Origin: Vulcanimicrobiota bacterium
Lineage (GTDB): Bacteria; Vulcanimicrobiota; JAJTBE01
NCBI GenBank assembly: GCA_021107945.1
Contig: JAIORV010000052.1
Location: 1-64,000, forward strand
DNA length: 64,000 bases
Direction of reading: 5' to 3'
Shown: positions 7,007 through 9,416 of the stretch, one piece after another
Layout: the number at the start of each line of letters is the position of its first letter
Position numbering within the stretch: the stretch's first letter is position 1
The notes under the pieces: model-generated
The model's database searches: none
The model's input: only the letters and a program-made list of their open reading frames with translations
Told to the model about the DNA's origin: nothing
Made by a program: the position numbers and the translations under genes

Positions 7007-7121
7007 TATAATCAAAGATTATATAAACTTATACAAAAATCCTTCGAAGGATAATTTGTTAATTAAACAAAAATATATTATCAAGGCAAATTAATAAAAT
7101 ACAAAAAAAGGAGGGGAGGCA

Positions 7122-8159
7122 GTGGCAACTGTTTTCTTTATGAAATTCAACCGTGATCAGGGAGCCATTATTGCAGATGAAATGACCTGGCATTTAAGCT
7201 TCAAGTATGGATACAGACCCTCCCGCTATGGAGATAATATCATGAACCTCCTGGATGCAGAAACTTCCATGAAAAATGATTTTGTGGCAGTTTACGCGGG
7301 AATCGGATTTCCATCATTCCATTTTGAAGTGGCAAGAAAGGCCGCAAAAAAACTGAACATGGATGGAGAAACAATAGGTAATCTTGATAAAACCGGCGAA
7401 TTCGTGGAAAATATTTATCAGGAAGTCCACGCAAGACTTATTAACGACCGTCTCAGGTTTAACTTCGGATTTGATCGCGACCAGTTGAACAACAGGAAAT
7501 TCAAATACGAAGGAAAGGAATACGATATAAATCAGGAATCCGTTATCGACGAGGCCAAAAAAATTCTGAATTTCGGTGACAAGCAGGAGGCATATCAAAG
7601 AATCTTCGACAATGAAGGGCTTGTTATGGGGTATGATAAAGATAATGGAATAAGAGCATACCACATCGAAAACAGCGGAAGAGGACTTGAATTTGCATAT
7701 CCTTTTGATGCAATGGGACCGGGAAAAGAGCTTGGGACAAGAGTTTTCGCTGATACAAGCTACAGGATGCAGTTGGAAGAAAGAAGAAAAGGATTCAGTT
7801 TCTCAGATGGACTTTTCCTGCTTCTCAACTGTTTCATCGAGTCATATGATTCTAATATGAAAACCGGTGGGTATTTCCAGATTTTCATGATTGACGGAAA
7901 GCGTGAGTTTTTCAACGAGCTGACAAAAGAACGAAATGATCACAACTGTCACCTTGCGGCGGAAATAATAAGGGGATACCGCTGGGGATACCTCACAAGA
8001 AGTATCGCACAACCCCTGATTGACAGGCTGGTTATACAGGGTGAAGATTGGGAGCCGATTGAAAACGAGATGTTCGAAGCTTCATCGGATCCAGGATTGC
8101 TGAAGAAATACCTGATGGGATTCAAACCCGCTAACGTGCCAAACAAACCGCTTAAATAG
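7122..8159 (+). CDS. Proteasome-fold (Ntn-hydrolase-like) protein, paralogue 1
   Basis: 345 residues. I read it as a divergent 20S-proteasome beta-type fold. Taking Thr3 as residue 1 of the mature chain, an aspartate falls at position 17 (AIIADE, Asp19), as in proteasome beta subunits. The expected lysine 33 is arginine (Arg35) or displaced. Further matches follow in order: FVAVYAG (strand after the first helix pair), GLVMGYDKDNG (the GG-D strand), MGPGKE (GSGS loop, Ser replaced by Pro) and ESYDSNMKTGG (Asp243, equivalent to Asp166). There is a roughly 50-residue insertion before GLVMG and about 90 extra C-terminal residues. The GTG start follows AAAGGAGGGG at 7107-7116. The next gene is its paralogue. 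If active it would be a threonine hydrolase; loss of Lys33 argues for caution. Confidence 0.55.
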   Translation: MATVFFMKFNRDQGAIIADEMTWHLSFKYGYRPSRYGDNIMNLLDAETSMKNDFVAVYAGIGFPSFHFEVARKAAKKLNMDGETIGNLDKTGEFVENIYQEVHARLINDRLRFNFGFDRDQLNNRKFKYEGKEYDINQESVIDEAKKILNFGDKQEAYQRIFDNEGLVMGYDKDNGIRAYHIENSGRGLEFAYPFDAMGPGKELGTRVFADTSYRMQLEERRKGFSFSDGLFLLLNCFIESYDSNMKTGGYFQIFMIDGKREFFNELTKERNDHNCHLAAEIIRGYRWGYLTRSIAQPLIDRLVIQGEDWEPIENEMFEASSDPGLLKKYLMGFKPANVPNKPLK

Positions 8160-8258
8160 AGGTTGGAGGTCAAAAGTCAGAAGTCGGATCCCGTTTCCCG
8201 CTTCTCATTTCCCACTTCCCACTTCCCACTTCTCGTAAAAGATTGGAGGTTTTATTAA
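8160..8258 (+). repeat. CCCACTTCC tandem microrepeat between paralogues
   Basis: Between the two proteasome-like genes the sequence runs through GGAGGTCAAAAGTCAGAAGTCGG and then CCCACTTCCCACTTCCCACTTC-type repeats (period eight) before the ribosome-binding site of the second gene. Related purine or pyrimidine microrepeats occur at 42036-42070 and 34593-34625. Confidence 0.5.
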
Positions 8259-9311
8259 ATGACATCAATAAATGCGCTTCGGTTTGATAAATATTCCGGA
8301 ATATGCATTGGCGACGAGAGTATCTCGACAGTCGCCGAGATCAAGATAAACGTCGGAGAGAAAGTCAGTCCTTTCATACCGGGGGAAATTGTTGAAAACT
8401 ACGGTATCGTCGGGGCACTTGGCTCAACGGGGACTTGCTCAATAGGAGACACGATACAGGAAAAAATTGAGAACAAGTTGAGGGGAATCTTTCACAAGGA
8501 GATTGAAAAAACCGGCAAGAAACCAGACAGTTTCATGAACCTGGAAGAAATAATGGCTCTATGTTTCGATGTTGTGATAGAAATAAAAAACTCCCGTATA
8601 TCGGAAAAAATAAAGGGTACATATAATTTCACCGTGCCGGAGTTCATCGAGGGCAAATATAAGAGGAACGACGAAACATACGAGATAAAAGACAAGGATG
8701 TTATCAGGAAAATTACCGAACAAGTGACCTGGAAAAATAAAGATGAAGAAGTCGGTTTTATCTATCTCAATGCCGGGCTGGTTGCCGGATATGACAACGA
8801 ACTCGGGTTCCAGATATACCACTTTGATCTTCGCGACGGTTACTGGCACAGGGTGCAGAACTGCTATATGGCGGAGGGATCCGGCAGGCATTCCGTGGAC
8901 CCGGCCGTATATGGGTACGCCGAGAAATGGCTGCTTGAAGAAAGGAGAGGTAATATTGATCCTGTCGAAGGAAGCATCGCCCTGATTCATGGGGTCAATT
9001 ACGCCTCGGACCACGAAATCGGCGTCGGGGGATATTACAACATAATACTCATTGACGGCAGAGAGAAGGACTACAAAAAGAGACTTCGTGAAATAAATGA
9101 CGACAGGTCTCTTCTTGCAAACCATATTGTCCGTGCTCTCGACAGCAATTTCCTCACATACAAGCAAACACACAATCTGATAAAAAAGCTGTTGTTTGAA
9201 GGGGTATCGTTTGAAGAGATATATGATGAATTATGGAGTACGGTAAAAGAGCCTGAGCAATTCAGCAGAATTCTCCGTGGATATAAGATAATCGCAAAGA
9301 GGTTGTTTTGA
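8259..9311 (+). CDS. Proteasome-fold (Ntn-hydrolase-like) protein, paralogue 2
   Basis: 350 residues, homologous along its length to the preceding gene. Aligning the two N-termini puts Ser3 opposite Thr3 of the partner; from Ser3 as residue 1, Asp19 falls at position 17 (CIGDE) and Lys35 at position 33 (GEKVSPF), the exact proteasome spacing. Later landmarks are GALGSTG, GLVAGYDNELGFQIY, the GSG loop in AEGSGRH (residues 206-209) and Asp251 in YASDHEIGVGG (Asp166 equivalent). So this copy keeps Lys33 and the GSG serine but has serine as the candidate nucleophile, whereas the partner keeps threonine. GGAGG stands before the ATG. The gap to paralogue 1 is 99 bases and holds only short repeats, so the two are probably co-transcribed and may form a mixed ring. 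Confidence 0.57.
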   Translation: MTSINALRFDKYSGICIGDESISTVAEIKINVGEKVSPFIPGEIVENYGIVGALGSTGTCSIGDTIQEKIENKLRGIFHKEIEKTGKKPDSFMNLEEIMALCFDVVIEIKNSRISEKIKGTYNFTVPEFIEGKYKRNDETYEIKDKDVIRKITEQVTWKNKDEEVGFIYLNAGLVAGYDNELGFQIYHFDLRDGYWHRVQNCYMAEGSGRHSVDPAVYGYAEKWLLEERRGNIDPVEGSIALIHGVNYASDHEIGVGGYYNIILIDGREKDYKKRLREINDDRSLLANHIVRALDSNFLTYKQTHNLIKKLLFEGVSFEEIYDELWSTVKEPEQFSRILRGYKIIAKRLF

Positions 9312-9376
9312 TCAACTAAATGTGCCGGTTGCCCGGAGAGAAACCTAATTAAATATAAATTGTCTAATCATCAAAA

Positions 9377-9400
9377 TGTGGAGGGCTACTGCCCTCCACA
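9377..9400. terminator. Hairpin between convergent genes
   Basis: TGTGGAGGG (9377-9385) and CCCTCCACA (9392-9400) form a perfect nine-pair stem with a six-base loop. It lies between the rightward proteasome-like gene and the leftward symporter gene. Read leftward it is followed by TTTTGATGA, so it more likely ends transcripts from the right; the run of T is short. Confidence 0.45.
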
Positions 9401-9416
9401 TTCATTATAATTACTA

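Follow-up and report, generated by a model that had tools for sequence, protein, structure and literature searches.

In the proteasome the catalytic residues follow the order and placement Thr1, Asp17, Lys33, Gly47 and Ser129, and the duplication that divided its ancestor into active and inactive subunit types is regarded as having happened once, in ancient times. HslV has the same fold and triad but is a single subunit of about 175 amino acids whose gene adjoins hslU. Anbu is encoded by a single gene without a dead partner, in an operon with transglutaminase, ATP-grasp and Alpha-E genes; the ATP-grasp gene of these operons has been described (PMC5666114), as has the maturation of the Met-Thr start of Anbu by methionine aminopeptidase, which leaves a free Thr1 (PMC5666114). 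In 2021 Fuchs, Alva and Lupas added 22 subfamilies to the proteasome-like family, which is characterized by a Thr-Asp-Lys triad and Gly47 (PMC8665760). Active-site conservation was an acceptance criterion for candidates in that survey, the text of which nowhere mentions tandem genes, paralogues or operons of the PHI and PMI proteins (PMC8665760).

The window analyzed here is a stretch of 64,000 nt of contig JAIORV010000052.1 from a Vulcanimicrobiota bacterium, in which two adjacent genes, A and B, occupy positions 7122-9311. We consider it likely that their products form a heteromeric Ntn-threonine hydrolase whose most probable activity is that of a peptidase, with B as the catalytic subunit and A as a dead partner. 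The features of the locus are as follows:

7110..7119, + strand: ribosome-binding site of A, GGAGGGGAGG, from the sequence
7122..8159, + strand: gene A, predicted catalytically dead proteasome-fold subunit, 345 aa, GTG start (MATVFFMKF...), 29 homologues
8160..8250, + strand: stretch between A and B, a heptamer-repeat element with near-identical 11-bp copies at its two sides
8160-8170, + strand: 11-bp copy AGGTTGGAGGT, left flank of the heptamer-repeat element
8240-8250, + strand: 11-bp copy AGATTGGAGGT, right flank of the element and ribosome-binding site of B
8259..9311, + strand: gene B, predicted catalytic proteasome-fold subunit, 350 aa, ATG start (MTSINALRF...), 32 homologues
9375..9402, + strand: terminator-like hairpin 3' of B, a consensus match only

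An earlier note on this DNA had described two tandem open reading frames encoding paralogues with a proteasome fold, a large insertion and a C-terminal extension, matching neither Anbu nor HslV, and all of these points were borne out. The frames lie at 7122-8159 and 8259-9311, and the proteins are paralogues with 25% identity across 271 amino acids (BLASTP, E 1e-25), the profiles of the two subfamilies aligning over 350 columns with 100% probability in a profile-profile comparison. AlphaFold2 run on the family alignment gave models with pLDDT values of 93.5 for B and 91.9 for A and a pTM of 0.90 for both. Comparison of the models with the PDB by Foldseek, a search that the note had proposed, returned 1128 matches for B and 784 for A at E ≤ 0.001, with best E values of 5.9e-11 (B, to a 20S entry) and 4.5e-8 (A) and target TM values of about 0.75-0.79 against 20S; the best 50 of the 1128 and the best 50 of the 784 are all 20S or Anbu entries. 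On these models A and B belong to the proteasome-like (Ntn-threonine) family, with a predicted alpha-beta-beta-alpha fold. The family profile matched 20S alpha5 with an E value of 5e-4 and a 20S beta pair with 3e-4, compared with 0.1-0.4 for reversed and shuffled controls. By sequence alone the link to HslV is weak (hhalign E 0.04 for B and 0.007 for A), so the fold comparison carries the proteasome argument. No Pfam or NCBIfam model recognizes A or B, and the curated Anbu and HslV models gave no significant match. With Pfam PF00227, A scored 12.1 bits, under the gathering cut-off of 22.4, and B, in a further difference from 20S subunits, was not matched; 2 of 14 family members were matched weakly, and in 16 genomes the model exceeded its cut-off in other proteasome-type genes only, at none of the family loci. 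The PHROGs search gave nothing firm, with weak matches of two members to phrog_1040, a phage HslV family (best E 0.005). A role in anti-phage defence was considered and set aside, as no PADLOC model matched. Because no Pfam, NCBIfam, PHROGs or PADLOC model recognizes the family, annotation probably lists these proteins as hypothetical.

The two elements that enlarge both chains are located in B as follows:

8625..8771, + strand: insertion after helix H2, residues 123-171, helices and a small hairpin (AlphaFold2 model; spanned by the A-B profile alignment)
9060..9287, + strand: C-terminal helical extension, residues 268-343, four helices (AlphaFold2 model; common to A)

The insertion, of about 50 residues and common to A and B, lies at the proteasome pore-loop site and follows two long helices, H1 (60-85) and H2 (95-122) in the B model. 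The distance from the GSG motif to the GG block is about 7 residues greater in the family than in a 20S beta subunit. All 30 A proteins begin directly at strand S1, with no N-terminal H0 helical extension. Near the C-terminus, R340 in B and K335 in A are invariant. In both chains the four-helix extension ends in LRGYK; a motif of this type is nearly invariant at the C-terminal end (9258-9287 in B and 8104-8130 in A) and is possibly a docking tail. A long insertion after H1/H2 is shared with PHI, PMI-3 and PMI-4, corresponding to residues 123-171 here, whereas the H3/H4 insertion of PMI-3 and PMI-4 is nearly absent in A and B (PMC8665760). The PHI and PMI proteins are also similar in being divergent proteasome-like proteins of rare bacteria with no AAA+ partner (PMC8665760). 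A and B were compared with them on the published descriptions; the proteasome-like family itself was already known. The survey would tend to discard A because it selected for conserved active-site residues, and most of the metagenome-assembled genomes (MAGs) with the family appear, from their accession series, to postdate its August 2020 database (PMC8665760).

The catalytic positions in B were named beforehand from the known fold and then located in an alignment of 63 sequences (alignment A4), comprising 33 B and 30 A proteins:

8262..8264, + strand: Thr2 codon of B, putative nucleophile (Thr1 of the mature chain), 33 of 33 B and 0 of 30 A
8313..8315, + strand: Asp19 codon of B, Asp17 equivalent at the end of strand S2 (13-18 in the model), 63 of 63 sequences
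8361..8363, + strand: Lys35 codon of B, Lys33 equivalent at the start of strand 36-38, 33 of 33 B
8430..8432, + strand: Gly58 codon of B, equivalent of the Gly47 of the oxyanion hole, after strand 51-57, 33 of 33 B and 29 of 30 A
8877..8885, + strand: GSG motif of B, G207-S208-G209 (Ser208 equivalent to Ser129), before helix H3, 33 of 33 B

All of Thr2, Asp19, Lys35, Gly58 and the GSG motif were found among the 20 invariant columns of B. In the B model, S1 spans residues 3-8 and S2 13-18, Asp19 comes directly after S2, Lys35 stands before strand 36-38, Gly58 comes after strand 51-57 and the GSG motif precedes helix 210-221. The order and placement of these positions match those of the proteasome with one extra residue in the turn between S1 and S2, which is why the spacing from Thr2 to the aspartate is 18 and not 17. 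Residue 2 is a threonine in every B protein and in no A protein, where it is Ala (18), Gly (7) or Ser (5), and residue 3 varies among the 33 B proteins (20 have Ser, 12 Val and one Thr) and is Thr in only 2 of 30 A, which identifies Thr2 as the putative nucleophile of B. The Lys column holds a lysine in 33 of 33 B and never in the 30 A, where Asn, His, Ser, Cys, Tyr, Phe or Ala is found; the A protein of the window carries Asn39. The serine of the GSG motif is retained in just 2 of 30 A, against all 33 B. Asp166 and Ser169 of the proteasome appear to be replaced in B, the alignment placing mostly Asn253 and Val256 in their columns. Because B has the whole triad and A retains only the aspartate, B is the predicted catalytic subunit and A a predicted catalytically dead one. 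The count of 0 in 30 A proteins does not amount to 30 independent losses, because the loss of Thr and Lys probably was one event in the tree, an ancestral loss of both residues in A after which the Lys column drifted. The informative part is the constraint on B across wide divergence.

The earlier note had assigned the catalytic residues differently, taking Thr3 of the first chain and Ser3 of the second as residue 1, a count that puts an aspartate at position 17 in both, and holding that neither chain has the full triad alone. Its shared aspartate (the D19 column, 63 of 63 sequences), the lysine of the second chain (K35) and the VAVYAG, GLVxGYD, GSG and GG blocks are all present, but the residue that it gave as Arg in the first chain is Asn39, and the register itself does not hold, as residue 3 is unconserved in A and B and Thr2 is invariant in B. 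Two half-active subunits completing one triad across their interface would be the consequence of that register; with B alone carrying Thr, Asp and Lys in 33 of 33 cases, and 30 of 30 A lacking both Thr and Lys, such a sharing of catalysis is extremely improbable.

Of the known systems, the 20S alpha/beta proteasome, as in Mycobacterium tuberculosis PrcA/PrcB, is alike in fold and in combining one active and one inactive subunit type, and the equivalents of its Thr1, Asp17, Lys33, Gly47 and Ser129 are present in B. It differs in that the insertion and C-terminal domain of A and B are missing there, the closest relative of A is B and vice versa, A lacks H0, B lacks a propeptide (Met-Thr start in 33 of 33) and Asp166 and Ser169 seem to have no counterpart in B. 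Anbu (PDB ID 5nyw and 5lox), the second-best group of fold matches, shares with the family the Met-Thr start without a propeptide, a C-terminal helical extension and, in one A-B lineage, an ATP-grasp gene as neighbour; the window contains no transglutaminase, ATP-grasp or Alpha-E gene, and beside A-B pairs ATP-grasp occurs only in two CSSED10-310 genomes. The 20S-like fold, the presence of one active and one dead type and their 1:1 co-inheritance would suit a classical self-compartmentalized ring protease, a bacterial analogue of the 20S core in which A and B rings alternate or are stacked and a housekeeping unfoldase delivers the substrate. This arrangement is rather doubtful, since A has no N-terminal H0 extension of the 20S alpha kind (0 of 30) and the insertion after H2 and the long C-terminal domain may be incompatible with ring closure, an argument already made for other insertion-bearing homologues (PMC8665760). 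In addition, the neighbourhoods of the pairs examined contained neither an AAA+ unfoldase like HslU, PAN or Mpa nor an hslU gene, and most of the family's genomes also carry HslV or 20S genes, the window's own genome having its HslV at G000:C30.

The two genes are inherited together. Of the 68 family members 65 lie in tandem, the exceptions being two solitary B genes and one copy at a contig edge. The two-component system that the earlier note inferred is supported, here as a predicted catalytic plus a predicted dead subunit. In 29 of 29 complete aligned pairs A is 5' of B on the same strand, with overlaps of 4 nt in 12 pairs and of 1 nt in 2, often of the ATGA type. A and B form reciprocal clades with support of 100 and 99 in a midpoint-rooted tree, their sequence similarity to 20S and HslV being too low for rooting with either. 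The A and B divergences over the 29 pairs are correlated (Mantel r 0.91, 0 of 5000 permutations), a value that owes something to the common history of the genomes. As both chains have the insertion and C-terminal domain, and 20S, HslV and Anbu lack them, the A/B duplication is best placed inside the subfamily and would then be independent of the 20S alpha/beta split. We infer that the division into active and inactive chains evolved apart from that of 20S alpha/beta. Linked inheritance in several uncultured bacterial groups suggests that the "active plus inactive subunit" design evolved twice, A/B representing a second split, one within a divergent branch of bacteria in which the two partners are inherited together in more than one phylum. 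The pair also offers a compact two-gene system for asking what a dead partner does, be it assembly, gating, activation of a neighbouring active site or substrate choice.

One solitary B gene, in the window's own genome (L033, G000:C42, 8167-9252), encodes a protein that begins MTVVSAMKF, keeps the triad and falls at the base of the B clade under the midpoint root; 3' of it are an overlapping universal stress protein gene and then an amino-acid permease gene. The other solitary B gene (G003:C281) adjoins a transposase domain. Since neither has an A neighbour, A is perhaps not always required. A triple arrangement A-B-B' occurs at L098 (G101:C154, 7201-10437), where B' also starts with Met-Thr.

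The genes around the pairs differ between lineages, so that no single pathway can be assigned to A-B; one conserved neighbour pathway was considered and rejected on the same grounds. Two CSSED10-310 genomes (G098 and G099) have an operon of the order M20 peptidase - A - B - ATP-grasp (L131, 7029-11878; L099, 6062-10938). An M20 gene is also found upstream of the pair in L028 and an M29 gene downstream in L096. The neighbouring ATP-grasp proteins fall partly below the curated cut-off of the Pfam model and match a putative glutathionylspermidine synthase in the PDB (E 1e-4). Circularly permuted ATP-grasp genes are multi-copy in the CSSED10-310 genomes with this operon. CP_ATPgrasp_2 gave no match in the window's own genome, and the ATP-grasp neighbour is therefore lineage-specific; where present, it recalls the Anbu operons and suggests a connection with peptide metabolism. 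ATP-grasp and peptidase genes beside the pair in one lineage, and the precedent of connectase, which shows that the proteasome-like family is able to switch to ligation (PMC8665760), could also indicate a transpeptidase or protein ligase. Connectase, however, carries a two-helix insertion between S3 and S4 and has no H1/H2, whereas H1 and H2 are long here and the insertion comes after H2, making a connectase-like ligase very unlikely.

In five Ignavibacteria-type genomes (L027, L029, L030, L104 and L105) the pair sits within a kynurenine operon, in the order cyclase-type formamidase - A - B - kynureninase - FAD mono-oxygenase; an enoyl-CoA hydratase gene adjoins the pair in two genomes and a polyprenyl synthase gene in several CSSED10-310 genomes. 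These contexts would be consistent with a small-molecule amidohydrolase serving the pathway of its operon, comparable to the Ntn enzymes penicillin acylase and cholylglycine hydrolase. We regard this as unlikely, because the active site stays constant across paralogues whose contexts vary, the fold matches are proteasome-like and not acylase-like, and M20, M29 and ATP-grasp are among the neighbours too. Large Ser/Thr kinases, several with beta-propeller domains, adjoin four pairs (L032, L034, L035 and L097) and were considered as candidate regulators. A dedicated AAA+ unfoldase was considered and rejected, as none adjoins the pairs and the sole AAA domain near one of them is an AAA_16/STAND part of a large kinase at L097.

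For a hydrolase with B as the catalytic and A as the dead subunit, the following mechanism is proposed. Methionine aminopeptidase would take off Met1 of B, turning Thr2 into the N-terminal nucleophile of a Thr-based hydrolysis, with Asp19, Lys35 and Gly58, aided by Ser208, presumably completing a proteasome-type active site. Co-inheritance and gene overlap suggest that A is an obligate structural or regulatory partner, made just ahead of B from the same transcript and probably in a 1:1 ratio. The reaction would be peptide-bond cleavage, probably of selected peptides over bulk protein, because no AAA+ unfoldase is linked, the insertion occupies the pore-loop site and the M20 - A - B - ATP-grasp operon exists. 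A more specific picture, put forward tentatively, is a second bacterial active/dead proteasome-like machine with a non-classical quaternary structure, whose role in a peptide-ligase pathway would be that of a selective peptidase or transpeptidase and which diversified into several paralogous pairs per genome.

The family comprises 68 members in 16 genomes, from the window's phylum, CSSED10-310 and Ignavibacteria/Bacteroidota MAGs. Five members are found in the window's own genome (the pair in the window, another on C17 and the solitary B on C42) and nine in a second genome of its phylum, which are the 2 positive genomes of 149 searched in that phylum. In the CSSED10-310 phylum group whole-genome searches were positive for 7 of 8 genomes, and in the class holding the Ignavibacteria MAG for 7 of 294. 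A contig scan with one peptide pattern found 12 loci, five from the second genome of the window's phylum and the others from CSSED10-310, Ignavibacteria and Bacteroidetes MAGs and an unplaced bacterium; as the pattern is narrow, this number is a lower bound. No match was found in phages, plasmids or IMG/VR contigs, the last searched with two short peptide patterns that can miss distant members, and a phage or plasmid origin of the pair was set aside.

The pair in the window stands alone, with the flanking genes on both sides on the opposite strand; we take these from their sequences to be a Nif3-like gene upstream and a sodium-solute symporter gene downstream. Its A-B gap of 99 nt is unusual among the pairs and contains heptamer units, TTCCCAC, between two flanking, near-identical 11-bp copies of the ribosome-binding site that lie 80 bp apart. 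A pattern search found the heptamer repeat at 73 sites in the window's own genome, compared with 0 for a control pattern. The stretch looks like a dispersed element inserted between A and B, without which the gap would be 19 nt.
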